From Actinomycetota bacterium (GTDB lineage: Bacteria; Actinomycetota; Acidimicrobiia; Acidimicrobiales; Ilumatobacteraceae), in the NCBI GenBank assembly GCA_009704065.1, contig WLEX01000020.1, positions 1 to 10,845 of the forward strand: a stretch of DNA of 10,845 bases. Reading direction: 5' to 3'. Each line of letters opens with the position of its first letter. Position 1 is the stretch's first letter. A model generated the notes under the pieces. That model searched no databases. It saw only the letters and a list, made by a program, of their open reading frames with translations, and was not told where the DNA came from. Shown one piece after another: positions 3,416-10,845 of the stretch. The position numbers and the translations under genes were made by a program.

Positions 3416-4602
3416 CACACTGCCACCGACCACGTTGACGATGCAGAGTTAGCAACATCGACATATCTCGTGGCTACTGCAGTCCATTTATGTTCAGCCG
3501 ATAATGGCACCGTTGCGCTCACCATCGATGACACCAAGGCATCGTTTGTTGCTACTTGACGAATTGCTCGGGCCAGGGCCGCAGGATCTTGGTGGGGAAC
3601 AACCATGCCTGCCCCGCCCGAGAGCAACTCCACTGCGTGAGGAAACCCCGTAGCAATGACTGGACGACCTGCGGCTATTGCATCAACCAACACTCCTGAC
3701 GTGATTTGGTCAGGTGAGTCGTAGGGAAGAACGACGCAGGTGGATTGAGAAATGAGATTAAGTAATGAAGGTAACGGCCGGTAGGTGTCATCGAAGGAGA
3801 TCATGGGAGAAACACCGAGCACGCTTGCCCTGCGCTTCAACATGTCGCGATAGCGCTCGCCTTCCTTCAACACAATCTTTGGGTGCGTCTGACCAGCAAT
3901 TACAAATTCAATGTCATCAATGAGATCGGGTAACAGCGCCAATGCATCGATAACGTGCTCGATCCCTTTTCCAAAGCCCAACAAACCCCAAGTCAGAAGT
4001 CGTGTCTTTCCTGCAGGTGGTGTTTCCAGTGCATGTGGCACCGTGGCGCCATGCGGTACGGTCACCACTTTGTCGGCGTCAAGGCTGTATCCAGCCAAGA
4101 GGCGATCTTTTGCAGCAGCCGTCATGGTCACTAAGTTCTGGGCTATCTCCGCGATGGCTTCCAATACTTGTCGTTGACCGGTGGTGGGCACCAAGGGAAC
4201 TGTGTGCAAAGTCACGATGATCGGAATGATTACATCGTCTAATAGTTCGAGAACTTCGATGCCATCTGGACCACCAAAAATTCCAAATTCATGTTGCACA
4301 AGCAAGTAATCAAATCCATTGATCACCCTCGCAGCATCAACGCGAGATCGTTGAGACCCCGATACCAATTGAGCAACTACACGAGCATCAGAATCATTTA
4401 CCAACTCGTCAACTACCCGAATAACGCCAACTTTGGCGACTCCAACATCTTCGAGACCGCCACATAGTGCGTTAGCAAAAGTGGCAAGGCCACAATGTGT
4501 AGGCGGATATGTGCTGAGCACTACAAAGCTTGCTGCGACTGGAGTTGAACTTCCTGGGTTCCTTGCTGTCATCTCATTTTCCAAAACTGCAGTAGCGACC
4601 AT
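3415..4602 (-). CDS. GT4-like GT-B glycosyltransferase
   Basis: This 395-residue retaining-type GT-B glycosyltransferase would move a sugar from a nucleotide-sugar donor to an unidentified acceptor in the cytoplasm. N-terminal domain motifs are YPPTHCGLATF (32-42), QHEFGIFGG (103-111) and TLHT (131-134). The donor-binding half has VPHG (182-185), TWGLLGFGKGIE (204-215) and SPDQITSGVLVDAIAAGRPV (296-315). The usual E-x7-E pair of GT4 enzymes reads Q-x7-D here (Q299, D307). No membrane helix is seen. The ATG at 4602 overlaps the preceding TAA by one base and has GAGG 7 nt upstream, so the start is well supported; residues 1-22 look like a poorly ordered leader. It is the second gene of the minus operon, behind the LPITG surface protein and ahead of the unassigned and GH130 genes. 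Sugar specificity cannot be read from sequence; mannose is a guess from the GH130 neighbour. Confidence 0.92.
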   Translation of the reverse strand: MVATAVLENEMTARNPGSSTPVAASFVVLSTYPPTHCGLATFANALCGGLEDVGVAKVGVIRVVDELVNDSDARVVAQLVSGSQRSRVDAARVINGFDYLLVQHEFGIFGGPDGIEVLELLDDVIIPIIVTLHTVPLVPTTGQRQVLEAIAEIAQNLVTMTAAAKDRLLAGYSLDADKVVTVPHGATVPHALETPPAGKTRLLTWGLLGFGKGIEHVIDALALLPDLIDDIEFVIAGQTHPKIVLKEGERYRDMLKRRASVLGVSPMISFDDTYRPLPSLLNLISQSTCVVLPYDSPDQITSGVLVDAIAAGRPVIATGFPHAVELLSGGAGMVVPHQDPAALARAIRQVATNDALVSSMVSATVPLSAEHKWTAVATRYVDVANSASSTWSVAV

Positions 4603-5975
4603 TACTGATCCTCATCTTTCATATTTCGTCGGACTTGAACTTGTGAGACCTTCATAAAGAGTCCACCTGTGACCAACAGCATCAATATTGCGAAGAGCAA
4701 GATCGATAACTGAGCACCAGTGATGGGAAGACCATCCGGGATCAATACGTCGAAGGTGTCGCTCGGAGTATTGGTGATGGTGGGGATGTTGTTTTGAAAA
4801 TTATCCCCCTCGCCCTGCGGTGATGCCGGTGTCGTGTTACTGACAGATACCGAGCCCCCAGCTACCGAAGTTGTTGTTACCGCCGGTGCCGTGGTTGTCG
4901 TTACTGCTGGACTGGTCGTTGTTGAGCTCTGCGGAACAGTGGTCTCAGAAAAGATGACGAGTGTTGTGGTCGTTACATCAACCGGCAACGTCGTCGAAGT
5001 TGTCGTAGTGGACTCGAGAGTCGTCGTAGTCGAAGTTGACGTGCTCGTGGAGGTTGTCGTAGTGGGCGCTGCAGTAGACGTAGTGGTTGTTGCACAGGCA
5101 GCATCACAAGCGTCCAGTTTCAGTGATCGATCCAAACTTCCTGCACTGCAGTTATCGACATTTGAGCATCTGAAGTCAAGTACCCGCATGTGAAATTCGG
5201 ACCCAGAGATTGCCGATGCAGAATTTCCATCACCCCAGTCCGTCTTCTTAGCTAAGTGCCCTCCCCACGACAGGACAACGGTCGACTCATTTGCTGTAAA
5301 AACAATGTCAATACTGGTGCTACTTGATCCCGCGTAAGTTCCTGTCAGGTTGTATGCACCGTGATTATTGGGAACCGAACACGAAGCAGAAGCACATAAA
5401 TTTCCAGTATTGGGTATAGCCGCTCCATTTGTTGGGAATGTCGCGCCAAATGCTCGCAGGACCTGACCAGCCAATTGCCCGACGCCTTCGTTGGTCACAT
5501 GTGGATCTATTCCGATCGGAAGGTCGTGACTATTGGGACCACACGAGATTCCAGCGCAAGGAAACGCTGTGAGTTCAGTCATGTCGTATGAAGCCAAATA
5601 GTCAGTGGCGTGTATTCCAGCCTTCGTTGTATCCCACTCAATCGTCACTTGGTATGACTGACCAGCAGTGAGGTGAATGAATTCAGCGCGGTATGGGACT
5701 GACTCACCTTCCGCATAAGTGGAATTATTTGTATTGAGGTTTCCCGTCTGCCATTGATTCGCATTTACATTTGAGTCACATGTTGAATTCTTATTTGCAC
5801 ATTGTTCCAATGACACACTAGGCCGTGTTGCGGCGCTAGCTCCTCTCGGAACCGTGACAACAAATGAGGCGAAAAGGAAGACGCACGCGATTAGCGCAGA
5901 AAAATACTTTGGTCTATTTATTTCAAGATCCTCAATCTTATTTACCCAAGTAGAAGAGTTAAATATATTTTTCAC
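4602..5975 (-). CDS. LPXTG (LPITG) cell-wall-anchored surface protein with Thr-rich stalk
   Basis: A 457-residue secreted protein. It has a long polar N-region (about 22 residues), a hydrophobic core (about 24-42) and a probable signal peptidase site after ASA at 48. A globular domain of about 240 residues follows, containing five closely spaced cysteine pairs (such as CANKNSTC, CAGISC and CSNVDNC). Next comes a Thr/Ser/Pro/Val low-complexity stalk (about 295-380). The end is a sortase signal: LPITG (416-420, bases 4716-4730), a hydrophobic helix, and a basic tail (VRRNMK). Sortase would cleave between Thr and Gly and attach it to the cell wall; no sortase gene is in the window. The GTG at 5975 is chosen because GAGAGG stands 7 nt before it; a TTG at 5990 lies inside that ribosome site. 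The domain resembles adhesin-like extracellular domains, but I cannot name a family. The stalk is a plausible O-glycosylation target, fitting the glycan genes behind it. Confidence 0.9.
   Translation of the reverse strand: MKNIFNSSTWVNKIEDLEINRPKYFSALIACVFLFASFVVTVPRGASAATRPSVSLEQCANKNSTCDSNVNANQWQTGNLNTNNSTYAEGESVPYRAEFIHLTAGQSYQVTIEWDTTKAGIHATDYLASYDMTELTAFPCAGISCGPNSHDLPIGIDPHVTNEGVGQLAGQVLRAFGATFPTNGAAIPNTGNLCASASCSVPNNHGAYNLTGTYAGSSSTSIDIVFTANESTVVLSWGGHLAKKTDWGDGNSASAISGSEFHMRVLDFRCSNVDNCSAGSLDRSLKLDACDAACATTTTSTAAPTTTTSTSTSTSTTTTLESTTTTSTTLPVDVTTTTLVIFSETTVPQSSTTTSPAVTTTTAPAVTTTSVAGGSVSVSNTTPASPQGEGDNFQNNIPTITNTPSDTFDVLIPDGLPITGAQLSILLFAILMLLVTGGLFMKVSQVQVRRNMKDEDQ
4610..4613 (-). promoter_or_regulatory. 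Ribosome binding site of the GT4 gene
   Basis: On the minus strand GAGG lies 7 nt before the ATG at 4602, inside the 3' end of the surface-protein gene. It fixes the GT4 start and shows that this gene has its own initiation site in addition to the TAATG stop-start overlap. Confidence 0.7.
4840..5095 (-). repeat. Low-complexity Thr-rich stalk-coding repeat
   Basis: This is a degenerate tandem of Thr codons (ACA/ACT/ACG/ACC) inside the surface-protein gene, read on the plus strand as repeated gtcgtagt/gttgtcgt units. An exact 13-bp direct repeat, gttgtcgtagtgg, occurs at 4999-5011 and 5053-5065. Codon usage among the Thr residues is mixed, which suggests selection on the protein rather than a recent simple-repeat expansion. 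Such tracts often vary in length between strains. Confidence 0.75.
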
Positions 5976-5982
5976 GGTAATT

Positions 5983-6013
5983 CCTCTCAACAGAAGAGGT
6001 TTTTACGCCTCTT
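5983..6013 (-). promoter_or_regulatory. Leader with two mutually exclusive hairpins at the surface-protein ribosome site
   Basis: Read as RNA from the minus strand, the leader holds AAGAGG (6013-6008), loop CGUAAAAA, CCUCUU (5999-5994), loop CUGUU, then GAGAGG (5988-5983), followed 7 nt later by the GTG start. The central CCUCUU can pair perfectly with the upstream AAGAGG (6 bp), leaving the Shine-Dalgarno free. It can instead pair with GAGAGG (5 bp plus one G-U), which hides it. This is the layout of a translational on/off switch. The pairings are seen directly; regulation, ligand or temperature response are inference. The transcript must start upstream of 6013. A possible minus-strand -10 box TACTTT lies at 6045-6040, with no good -35. 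Confidence 0.5.
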
Positions 6014-8014: not shown

Positions 8015-8425
8015 ATGAAAATTCTCTTCGTTGCCGGCTTTGCACCCATTGTTCCTAATCCTGTTGATGGGGCTTCCTTCTACAAAGACACTCTTGGGCT
8101 CCCCCTAGAAGTGGTGTCGGGCGACTATTTGGCAGTCGATGGATTTGGTGGCACTAAGCATCTCGGTATTTGGCCATTAGCCGATGCAGCACAATCATGT
8201 TTCGGAACCTCCGAATGGCCGAGTGATGTTCCTATTCCGCAAGCGACTCTTGAATTCGAAGTTGCCGATGTTGATGCCGCTGTTGCAGAACTCATTGCAA
8301 AAGGCCACATATTGATTCACGACACGCGCGTCGAACCATGGGGTCAAACAATCGCTCGCCTACTCGGCCCAGAAGGTCTTCTCATTGGGCTGTGTATTAC
8401 GCCCTGGTTGCACGAACCTAAATAA
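8015..8425 (+). CDS. VOC superfamily (glyoxalase/bleomycin-resistance fold) protein
   Basis: The 136-residue protein has one VOC unit of two beta-alpha-beta-beta-beta modules. The first module contains the FYKDTLGLPLE motif (22-32) and KHLGIW with His49. The second contains TLEFEVADVDAAVAELIAKG, then PWGQTIARLLGPEG near the end. Family members include glyoxalase I, dioxygenases and antibiotic-binding proteins that use a metal held by His and Glu. His49 is a possible ligand here, but the full metal set cannot be confirmed. It is soluble with no signal peptide. Its stop overlaps the convergent nitroreductase stop by 8 bp. The substrate is not predictable. Confidence 0.88.
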   Translation: MKILFVAGFAPIVPNPVDGASFYKDTLGLPLEVVSGDYLAVDGFGGTKHLGIWPLADAAQSCFGTSEWPSDVPIPQATLEFEVADVDAAVAELIAKGHILIHDTRVEPWGQTIARLLGPEGLLIGLCITPWLHEPK

Positions 8426-9071
8426 ACGTTGCCCACTGGTCGAGCGGCATGCGCTCAGACTTCAAAGAGTTGATAGGCGCAGTCTTATCGGCATATCCAA
8501 TTGCCATACCGCAGAACATCATTTCGTTATCGGGTGCTCCCACAAATGAACTCACTGCCTTGTGACGTACCGACCAATATTCCTGCGCACACGTATCGAG
8601 ACCGTTCTCTACTGCGAGCAACATGAACGTTTGCAAGAACATGCCAAGGTCCGACCACTGTGGTGCGCCCATCTGGCGATCGAAGTAGCAAAACAATGCA
8701 GCAGGTGCACCAAAGAAATCGTTGTTGTTTGCAAACTGACGCAAACGACCCGCCTTGTCTTCACGAGCGATGCCGAGAGTGGCATACATCTGCTCACCAA
8801 TGGTGAATCGATTCGTGCGGTACGGCTCGGTGATGCTCTTTGGATAAATGTCGTACTCGGGCTCTTCTACCGGTGGCTGTGTAGCAAGAAACTCGCGCAT
8901 CTTGGTCATGGAGTCGCCACTGACCACGTAGATACGCCATGGCTGCACGTTGCCACCACTAGGTGAACGAGAGGCATCGGTCAGTATTGACTTCAGTAAA
9001 TCCTCGGATACCGGAGTAGGAAGAAACTGGCGCACCGACAAGCGGGCATGTACTGCATCAACAACATTCAT
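8418..9071 (-). CDS. Nitroreductase family FMN-dependent oxidoreductase
   Basis: With the ATG at 9071 the product is 217 residues, the usual size for the family. The N-terminal FMN-phosphate region (ARLSVRQF) and the SPSGGNVQPW motif near 36-45 are typical. The C-terminal half keeps DLGMFLQTFMLLAVENGLDT, the helix that packs on FMN, and the CGMAIGYAD strand near the end. Nitroreductases are homodimers that reduce nitro compounds, quinones or other electron acceptors with NAD(P)H; the physiological substrate is unknown. A GTG at 9077 is an alternative start, but the ATG sits 8 nt after a TAAGGT -10-like box. The gene is divergent from the PhnB-like gene (66 bp between starts) and convergent with the VOC gene. 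Confidence 0.92.
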   Translation of the reverse strand: MNVVDAVHARLSVRQFLPTPVSEDLLKSILTDASRSPSGGNVQPWRIYVVSGDSMTKMREFLATQPPVEEPEYDIYPKSITEPYRTNRFTIGEQMYATLGIAREDKAGRLRQFANNNDFFGAPAALFCYFDRQMGAPQWSDLGMFLQTFMLLAVENGLDTCAQEYWSVRHKAVSSFVGAPDNEMMFCGMAIGYADKTAPINSLKSERMPLDQWATFI

Positions 9072-9079
9072 CGCCACAA

Positions 9080-9627: not shown

Positions 9628-9633
9628 TACACT
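9628..9633 (+). promoter_or_regulatory. -10 box for leaderless mycoredoxin-heliorhodopsin mRNA
   Basis: TACACT is followed by 7 nt and the ATG at 9641, with no Shine-Dalgarno between (GACCACT). It would drive the mycoredoxin, heliorhodopsin and DUF4287 genes as one message. No clear -35 is seen. Confidence 0.5.
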
Positions 9634-9640
9634 GACCACT

Positions 9641-9889
9641 ATGTCGACACCTGCAATCACTATGTACAGCACCACCTGGTGCGGCCCCTGCAAGCGCCTG
9701 AAATCAGACCTTGAGAAATCAGGTATCCCATTTACTCAAATCGATATTGAAAACGATGAAGCTGGAGCAGCGCTCATCGAAACCATCAATAACGGAAACC
9801 GCACAGTGCCAACATTGGTCTTTACTGACGGTTCATCAATGACAAATCCTTCCATTGCAAAAGTGAAAGAACACCTCGGAATCTCATGA
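9641..9889 (+). CDS. Mycoredoxin-like glutaredoxin (CGPC active site)
   Basis: An 82-residue thioredoxin-fold protein that matches actinobacterial mycoredoxin (Mrx1-type) in pattern: WCGPC active site (C14, C17), RLKSDLEKSGI helix, QIDIENDEAGAALI, then NNGNRTVPTLVFTDGS and TNPS near the C-terminus. The cis-proline loop is TVP. Mycoredoxins reduce mycothiol-mixed disulfides in the cytoplasm. The CGPC centre is the thioredoxin form, unlike the CGYC of M. tuberculosis Mrx1. Its stop overlaps the heliorhodopsin start by 4 bp (ATGA), so the two are translationally coupled. The start follows a leaderless -10 box. Confidence 0.92.
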   Translation: MSTPAITMYSTTWCGPCKRLKSDLEKSGIPFTQIDIENDEAGAALIETINNGNRTVPTLVFTDGSSMTNPSIAKVKEHLGIS

Positions 9890-10653
9890 CCAACACACAA
9901 TTTGATGCATCGAAACTTCGCAAACGAAATCTCGTCGCGGGCACGCTTCATTTTGTTTCTTTCATAGCGATCTTGTTGTTATCTAACAACGCATCACTTC
10001 CCGTGACTGCCACGTACATGACCGATGCTCCTGGCACAGGCAAATTCACAGGCTCCATCTCTTTGTTCAACGTGAATATCAGTTACATGGTTGCTGCATT
10101 CATGGCGCTCTCAGCTTTCTTCCACTTCTTTGTGGCTTCTCCAAAGATTTTCCCTCGCTACATCGATGGGCTTACGCATCACATCAATAAATACCGATGG
10201 ATCGAATACTCCCTCTCGTCTTCCATCATGATTGTGATCATCATGCAGTTGAACGGCGTGTCGAACTTCATCGCCTTGCTTGCCCTCTTTGGTGTCAACG
10301 TGAGCATGATTTTGTTCGGATGGCTGCAAGAGCGTTACACCAGCCCAGGCGACGGTGATCTCCTCCCCTTCTGGTTTGGCTGTATTGCAGGAATCATCCC
10401 GTGGGTTGCAGTAGCCATCAACATCACTTCTCCAAACGGCCCTACTGAATCAACGACTCCGGGCTTTGTCTATGGCATCGTGATCTCGCTCTTCGTGTTT
10501 TTCAACTCATTTGCCATCGTGCAATGGAAGCAATACAAGGCCAAAGGGAAATGGGCTAACTACGCATACGGAGAGAATGTGTACATCACACTCAGCTTTA
10601 TTGCTAAGTCGCTGCTTGCTTGGCAAGTGTTTTCGGGCGCCCTCATCTCCTAA
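9886..10653 (+). CDS. Heliorhodopsin
   Basis: A 255-residue, seven-helix retinal protein. Helices are at roughly 14-33, 64-84, 104-121, 125-147, 162-182, 193-215 and 230-252, with the long first loop (34-63) typical of heliorhodopsins. Hallmarks are NKYRWIEYSLSSSIM in helix C, with R104 and counterion E107, and SFIAKSLLAW in helix G, with S237 and the retinal Schiff-base lysine K241. E107 and K241 have the same numbers as in the founding actinobacterial heliorhodopsin 48C12. H22 and H80 probably match its H23 and H80. Heliorhodopsins sit inverted in the membrane (N-terminus inside), have slow photocycles, and act in sensing or signalling rather than pumping in studied bacterial cases. The gene is coupled to the mycoredoxin gene by an ATGA overlap and followed 6 nt later by a DUF4287 gene. 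No retinal synthesis gene is in the window. Confidence 0.97.
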   Translation: MTNTQFDASKLRKRNLVAGTLHFVSFIAILLLSNNASLPVTATYMTDAPGTGKFTGSISLFNVNISYMVAAFMALSAFFHFFVASPKIFPRYIDGLTHHINKYRWIEYSLSSSIMIVIIMQLNGVSNFIALLALFGVNVSMILFGWLQERYTSPGDGDLLPFWFGCIAGIIPWVAVAINITSPNGPTESTTPGFVYGIVISLFVFFNSFAIVQWKQYKAKGKWANYAYGENVYITLSFIAKSLLAWQVFSGALIS

Positions 10654-10659
10654 GTTCTT

Positions 10660-10845
10660 ATGCCGACCGCAAGTGGTGATCGTTCTCAATTCTTTCCAGC
10701 GATTGAAAAGAAACATGGTTTGCCCATATCGCATTGGTTTAGCGCATTAGAAGAACTGACCAACGCAAAGTATCCCGAGCAGATTGCCTACCTTCGAGAA
10801 AACCACGGATTTAGTCAGGCGCACGCCAACGCAGTGGTAATGCAT
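10660..10845 (+). CDS. DUF4287 domain protein (3' end outside window)
   Basis: An ATG 6 nt after the heliorhodopsin stop opens a frame that stays open for 62 codons to the window end. The translation (SQFFPAIEKKHGLPISHW, then EQIAYLRENHGFSQAHANAVV) matches the DUF4287 pattern: F-P-A-I-E-K-K-x-G in the first helix, a tryptophan, then the L-x-E-x-H-G-x-x-x-x-H-A-N-A signature. The domain is small, helical and of unknown function, often with a DUF5655 domain after it; whether one follows here cannot be seen. There is no Shine-Dalgarno, so translation probably relies on reinitiation after the heliorhodopsin stop, which argues for one shared transcript. Confidence 0.82.
   Translation, partial: MPTASGDRSQFFPAIEKKHGLPISHWFSALEELTNAKYPEQIAYLRENHGFSQAHANAVVMH

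Follow-up and report, generated by a model that had tools for sequence, protein, structure and literature searches.

In the window (the whole 10,845-nt contig analyzed here, from a MAG, G000, of an uncultured aquatic bacterium, 71% complete), a mycoredoxin gene, a heliorhodopsin gene, and a DUF4287 gene follow one another on the forward strand in what sequence features support well as an operon. We tentatively read this locus, with a probability of about 0.4, as one leaderless operon acting as a light-associated thiol-stress unit, in which heliorhodopsin sits between the members of a mycoredoxin-DUF4287/YdhG pair. A functional association of the three genes is moderately likely, and the recurrence of such genes in relatives, in other orders, suggests a shared job.

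Three adjoining genes at the window locus

The first gene (9641 to 9889, + strand) encodes an Mrx1-like glutaredoxin with a WCGPC motif, scoring 98.4 bits with the mycoredoxin model TIGR02200 (cut-off, 89.5). Its best PDB sequence match is 2LQO, i.e., Rv3198.1 (Mycoredoxin-1) of Mycobacterium tuberculosis (81 bits). Both are glutaredoxin-like proteins of about 80 residues, but Rv3198.1 carries CGYC, whereas the window protein carries CGPC; both motifs occur in relatives. The mycoredoxin stop overlaps the heliorhodopsin start in a 4-bp ATGA (9886 to 9889, +). Heliorhodopsin (9886 to 10653, +) matches PF18761 and NF038020 with 302.5 and 308.4 bits, respectively, and aligns with the 48C12 structure 6SU3 (306 bits), Lys241 and Glu107 being aligned with 48C12. 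We take Lys241 to be the retinal lysine in TM7 and Glu107 the counterion; the protein is predicted to bind retinal. The ATG of the DUF4287 gene (10660 to 10845, +) stands 6 nt past the heliorhodopsin stop, and its product matches PF14117 with 50 bits (cut-off, 27); the frame breaks off after 62 N-terminal codons because the window is the entire contig. The initial annotation, which had proposed a CGPC mycoredoxin joined to heliorhodopsin through an ATGA overlap and followed 6 nt later by DUF4287, was thus accurate on all three genes. The 4-bp overlap places the locus among the operons of Bulzu et al. (2021), defined by a glutaredoxin gene that is co-oriented with heliorhodopsin and no more than 10 bp away from it.

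A VOC-type gene (PF06983; 9138 to 9599, +) ends 41 nt 5′ of mycoredoxin; a TANNNT box precedes its ATG by 6 nt, and it is probably a separate transcription unit. Farther upstream, a nitroreductase-family gene (8418 to 9077, −) forms a syntenic flank that is also found in the same-genus genomes G154, G158, G161, and G162 (84 to 85% identity). Elsewhere in the window, a 462-residue ORF (4602 to 5990, −) has a signal-like N terminus, a threonine-rich stretch, a C-terminal hydrophobic segment, and no Pfam match; in G142, G143, and G163, a relative (49 to 52%) shares a stretch of contig with heliorhodopsin.

A candidate leaderless promoter shared by mycoredoxin genes

A leaderless-type −10 box, TACACT (9628 to 9633, +), lies 7 nt 5′ of the mycoredoxin ATG. 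Published work on Actinobacteria describes such TANNNT boxes as well as leaderless genes. A TANNNT ending 6 to 7 nt 5′ of the mycoredoxin ATG occurs at 17 of 18 loci, counting the window (a contig end truncates the 18th), versus a background of 3 among the 435 window ATGs, the 17 loci being related by ancestry. The boxes vary (TACACT, TATAAT, TATAGT, TAAGAT, and TAGAAT). On these counts, the candidate box before the window mycoredoxin is more than chance, in agreement with the leaderless-type promoter originally proposed. A generic sigma-70 scan did not report the TACACT box and gave a single promoter prediction elsewhere, below the shuffled mean of 2.0; the scan requires a −35 hexamer and is unsuited to leaderless starts.

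At 14 of the 17 boxed loci, heliorhodopsin lies upstream of mycoredoxin and the box falls inside the gap between the two genes (34 to 39 nt in 13 of the 14); therefore, the box belongs to mycoredoxin. Since mycoredoxin has its own box at these 14 other linked loci, one transcript with heliorhodopsin is not needed there. In the window, no TANNNT box precedes the heliorhodopsin ATG and none lies 6 to 8 nt before the DUF4287 ATG, where one ends at 3 nt. The mycoredoxin box would therefore drive all three genes. The boxes before long DUF4287 genes fit read-through from mycoredoxin to DUF4287: among 28 loci (starts assigned automatically to the closest ATG or GTG), a box 6 to 7 nt before the start was found for 0 of the 4 genes that immediately follow mycoredoxin, 2 of the 5 that immediately follow heliorhodopsin (present in G006 and G215; absent in the window, G007, and G028), and 15 of the 19 elsewhere. 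Together, junctions and boxes make a single transcript, as the initial annotation had envisaged, the simplest reading of the window.

The box and spacer before the heliorhodopsin ATG of G072 (locus L102), TACACTGAGCACT, differ by one base from those of the window mycoredoxin, TACACTGACCACT; this likeness is either chance or a trace of recombination.

Mycoredoxin recurs beside heliorhodopsin in a different gene order

The family set (probably Ilumatobacteraceae) comprised 221 genomes, of which 146 have heliorhodopsin, 90 DUF4287, and 133 a TIGR02200 match (53 above the cut-off). We read 142 heliorhodopsin loci from 139 of these genomes, the window included; neighbor counts are lower bounds because flanks spanned 1.5 to 5 kb, many of them ran into a contig end, and some ten short partial matches were left out. 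The initial annotation had named absence of the same gene order at other heliorhodopsin loci as evidence against its proposal, and the exact order was found at 0 of the 141 other loci in the family and 0 of 90 outside it. The window order was thus seen just once, on one contig of a MAG.

Mycoredoxin nonetheless lies directly beside heliorhodopsin, on the same strand, at 15 of the 142 family loci (14 genomes, confined to the window's own genus, g1, and g23), so that the recurrence of a thiol oxidoreductase next to heliorhodopsin holds beyond the window. At the other 14 loci, heliorhodopsin comes first and mycoredoxin directly after. The own genus contains 12 TIGR02200 matches in 11 of 32 genomes, 10 of which adjoin heliorhodopsin and 2 of which are at contig ends. 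The remaining 127 of the 142 family loci have no adjacent mycoredoxin, and many family genomes (e.g., in g2 and g9) carry their TIGR02200 gene away from heliorhodopsin; the linkage is therefore not the rule. Mycoredoxin-DUF4287 pairs lacking heliorhodopsin in G145 and G159 were set aside as uninformative, as their contigs end there.

A wider phylum sample contained heliorhodopsin in 109 of 396 genomes. Neither mycoredoxin nor DUF4287 was detected with family-built HMMs at the 90 loci outside the family, in flanks of about 1.5 to 2 kb where the contig allows. Of 80 of these 90 genomes, 71 have PF00462 and 15 have PF14117; coordinates compared by eye put the closest glutaredoxin 6.3 kb (G538) and the closest DUF4287 4.7 kb (G252) from heliorhodopsin. 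Since the text of Bulzu et al. reports 31 glutaredoxin/GSHPx cases from a wider set, the present sample does not show a link confined to the Ilumatobacteraceae.

In two g2 genomes, the heliorhodopsin frame is in pieces (loci L136 of G007 and L140 of G003), reflecting either decay or assembly error.

DUF4287-YdhG is the most frequent recurrent neighbor of heliorhodopsin in the family

DUF4287 ranks first among ORF clusters near heliorhodopsin (23 genomes in six genera, 14 within 600 bp), a cluster that also includes a short, 70-residue type. Of the 59 genomes with both genes, 19 from six genera, the window included, have the long type no more than 3 kb away from heliorhodopsin (the heliorhodopsin list covered 143 of the 146 genomes, and the raw figure, 20 of 62 matches, includes a second, partial match in G080). 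Random placement would yield about 0.2 such genomes, an expectation that overstates significance because related genomes are not independent and that is not a probability. The gene is directly downstream of heliorhodopsin in the window, G006, G007, G028, and G215; behind mycoredoxin in G154 and G158; upstream of heliorhodopsin in G142, G143, G163, and G080; divergent in G144; and further downstream in G013, G014, G069, G072, G182, G183, and G185. Eight of 24 genomes have the short type at up to 3 kb from heliorhodopsin, in each case on the opposite strand. DUF4287 also lies close to PF04978 genes away from heliorhodopsin, as coordinate comparison indicated for G201 (contig C25), G202 (C295), and G046 (C7).

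A rather doubtful alternative attributes such neighborhoods to neutral processes: heliorhodopsin would reside at a chromosomal site prone to shuffling and loss, shared ancestry of the site would keep the neighbors, and a chance join would have produced one transcript in the window lineage. It accommodates the recurrence around heliorhodopsin of mycoredoxin, DUF4287, nitroreductase, ABC ATPase, glyoxalase-like, and ANTAR genes, in arrangements such as ABC-nitroreductase-HeR-mycoredoxin-DUF4287, ANTAR-DUF4287-HeR, ABC-glyoxalase-DUF4287-HeR, and ABC-HeR (HeR, heliorhodopsin), as well as that of other families, e.g., Sbt_1 in six genera. However, it accounts less readily for the first rank of the DUF4287 cluster, for the placement of the long gene on the heliorhodopsin strand in 18 of 19 genomes, and for its position directly behind heliorhodopsin in five genomes of three genera.

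The initial annotation had called DUF4287 an unstudied partner. Its recurrence beside heliorhodopsin supports it as a candidate partner, but the picture of a lone domain of unknown function was discarded: full-length relatives consist of an N-terminal DUF4287 domain, which had no PDB match, and a C-terminal YdhG/DUF1801 domain (Fra, frataxin-like). The fold of the latter in a full-length relative matches Bacillus subtilis YdhG/Fra (PDB 2OC6); the window copy is cut before this domain. Unlike B. subtilis YdhG/Fra, the relatives have the extra N-terminal domain and, judging by charge, have not kept the acidic ridge on which iron has been proposed to sit in Fra, helix 84 to 100 being lysine-rich and the net charge of the domain at least +3 in 22 of 24 proteins. 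These features weigh against a further, quite improbable explanation that builds on the Fra-like fold, namely, light-linked iron handling, with DUF4287-YdhG as an iron chaperone, mycoredoxin serving Fe-S/heme enzymes, and heliorhodopsin adjusting the supply of iron under light that turns iron and porphyrins harmful. DUF4287 appears in published work on type 6 secretion; a link to heliorhodopsin was not found in the literature consulted, and it may stand in the supplementary tables of PMC8612252.

The window heliorhodopsin and its flanks have different nearest relatives

The genes around the window heliorhodopsin are closest to those of same-genus genomes: nitroreductase is 85% identical to the G154 and G158 proteins, and mycoredoxin and the DUF4287 N terminus show 87.5 to 89% and 82 to 84%, respectively, to those of G154, G158, and G159. 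The nearest heliorhodopsin is that of G072, from genus g6 (78%, versus 72% to G154). On the heliorhodopsin tree, the window protein joins g6 with support of 96/95 (136 rows) and 91/89 (47 rows). Forcing the window heliorhodopsin into a clade with the same-genus G154 type costs 12.9 log units and is not rejected by the AU test (p-AU 0.072), so that a different origin is favored but not proven, and the window heliorhodopsin is best described as a favored candidate xenolog. The test does reject uniting all 15 mycoredoxin-linked heliorhodopsins in one clade (P = 0.0018), and the tree requires mycoredoxin linkage to have changed at least 4 times.

Mycoredoxin and DUF4287 are direct neighbors in the same-genus genomes G154 and G158, with 11 nt and no heliorhodopsin between them. 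Heliorhodopsin thus seems to have entered, or been moved into, this junction in the window lineage. The clean start/stop joins speak against a chimeric contig without excluding one. Base composition was discarded as evidence of transfer: the window heliorhodopsin has a GC3 of 0.61, yet values of 0.61 to 0.63 are also found in the same-genus G154 and G158.

Heliorhodopsin cysteines and a possible direct thiol switch

The overlap of the mycoredoxin and heliorhodopsin genes invites the idea of a direct thiol switch, in which mycoredoxin would reduce a heliorhodopsin disulfide or mycothiolated cysteine and light sensing would be redox gated. The distribution of cysteines makes this very improbable. 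The only cysteine of the window heliorhodopsin (position 166) is common to all 62 clade proteins (15/15 linked to mycoredoxin and 47/47 unlinked). A second common cysteine, absent in the window, is nearly equally frequent in linked and unlinked clade members (14/15 versus 41/47). A third, at window residue 140 (Ser here), is commoner in linked heliorhodopsins of relatives (9/15 versus 10/121 unlinked overall and 10/47 unlinked in the clade), but it is also present in unlinked close relatives of the window protein. As for DUF4287, 22 of 24 full-length proteins have no cysteine. A disulfide relay from mycoredoxin to heliorhodopsin or DUF4287 was rejected on the same grounds, cysteines being few in the window and the enrichment in relatives weak and confounded with clade.

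Mycothiol context and other recurrent neighbors

The search for the mycothiol pathway used the MshC model alone. Matches above 390 bits were obtained in 22 of 25 genomes of the genus, none reaching the equivalog cut-off of 485.1, and there was none in the 71%-complete G000. The host may well use mycothiol, the term mycothiol deriving here from family names.

PF04978, the mycothiol-S-transferase family by Pfam name, supplies further putative enzymes of this kind: it adjoins heliorhodopsin in at least 11 genomes of genera g9 and g1, divergently in 8 g9 genomes (including G090) and directly downstream on the same strand in G135, G138, and G148 of g1. The linked heliorhodopsins belong to distant clades, so that at least two origins are likely. 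Among genomes with both genes, these lie on different contigs in 3 of 11 from g9 (G088, G089, and G091) and 2 of 5 from g1 (G136 and G146). PF04978 was present in 13 of 18 genomes examined, with one copy each above the cut-off, and among the matches listed it exceeded the cut-off in 107 family genomes, some without heliorhodopsin. In three g23 genomes (contigs C51 of G187, C10 of G184, and C101 of G180), heliorhodopsin has a PF04978 gene on the opposite strand 3.4 to 3.5 kb upstream. A heliorhodopsin-mycothiol-S-transferase linkage was not found in the literature consulted; PF04978 may be listed in the supplementary tables of PMC8612252.

The initial annotation had suggested a tie between light sensing and mycothiol redox control. 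The recurrence of mycoredoxin and PF04978 neighbors favors this connection; against it stand the few cysteines and the derivation of mycothiol from family names, and the glutaredoxin/stress idea was itself published in 2021.

As to the source of retinal, Blh (PF15461) occurs in 10 of the 221 family genomes and in none of the genus, and RPE65-type oxygenases occur in 30 of 32 genus genomes, with 2 matches in G000.

The second-ranked cluster near heliorhodopsin encodes Sbt_1 bicarbonate transporters, found within 3 kb in nine genomes of six genera (locus L038 at 3582 to 4538, −, and G143, G150, G201, G069, G080, G182, G072, and G091); PF05982 was detected in both proteins scanned. In 8 of these 9 genomes, a gene for a small winged-helix regulator is likewise no more than 3 kb from heliorhodopsin. 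DUF4287, therefore, is not the sole repeated neighbor.

Relation to known systems and proposed role

Glutaredoxin genes that adjoin or overlap heliorhodopsin (n = 31 together with GSHPx), and a role of heliorhodopsin in light-induced oxidative stress, are already published (Bulzu et al., 2021; PMC8612252). The window shares the glutaredoxin-heliorhodopsin overlap with those neighborhoods; the text of that paper covered here does not name DUF4287, mycoredoxin, or mycothiol-S-transferase. In the literature consulted, one paper mentions both heliorhodopsin and mycothiol, and the passages on heliorhodopsin and mycoredoxin do not connect the two. Operons of heliorhodopsin with glutamine synthetase, photolyase, or an ABC transporter have also been described (PMC9529153, PMC9769723, and PMC11109279), and in them heliorhodopsin is reported to bind or modulate the neighbor's product; those partners differ from the ones in the window. 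The ten neighbor groups named in the available text of PMC11109279 include DUF2177 and DUF2238 but not glutaredoxin or DUF4287. Not found in print, then, are the linkages of heliorhodopsin to DUF4287-YdhG and to mycothiol-S-transferase; the present analysis further adds the conservation of the leaderless-type promoter and the rearrangement of the gene order.

According to the thiol-stress reading, transcription from the leaderless promoter at the mycoredoxin start would extend through all three genes, so that heliorhodopsin, as a retinal light sensor, would be made together with mycoredoxin and a soluble DUF4287-YdhG protein. Mycoredoxin would reduce mycothiol-protein mixed disulfides. Heliorhodopsin might touch a partner directly, a guess made by analogy with reports on other heliorhodopsins; DUF4287-YdhG is a likelier partner than mycoredoxin because it is the most frequent recurrent neighbor. 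A more ambitious version, which we regard as unlikely, has heliorhodopsin in the Ilumatobacteraceae feed light signals into a mycothiol-linked stress pathway, with the DUF4287-YdhG protein as its soluble output. Selection would then repeatedly reassemble heliorhodopsin with mycoredoxin, mycothiol-S-transferase, or DUF4287-YdhG, and in the window contig a heliorhodopsin from another lineage would have been placed inside a ready mycoredoxin-DUF4287 operon.

Partner genes are the main clue to the role of heliorhodopsin. DUF4287-YdhG is a small soluble protein of known fold, and the repeated presence of its gene beside heliorhodopsin, in six genera, makes it a concrete candidate for such a partner. 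Should the mycothiol link prove real, heliorhodopsins of aquatic actinobacteria would act in thiol-stress control, and the light/oxidative-stress proposal of 2021 would become directly testable.
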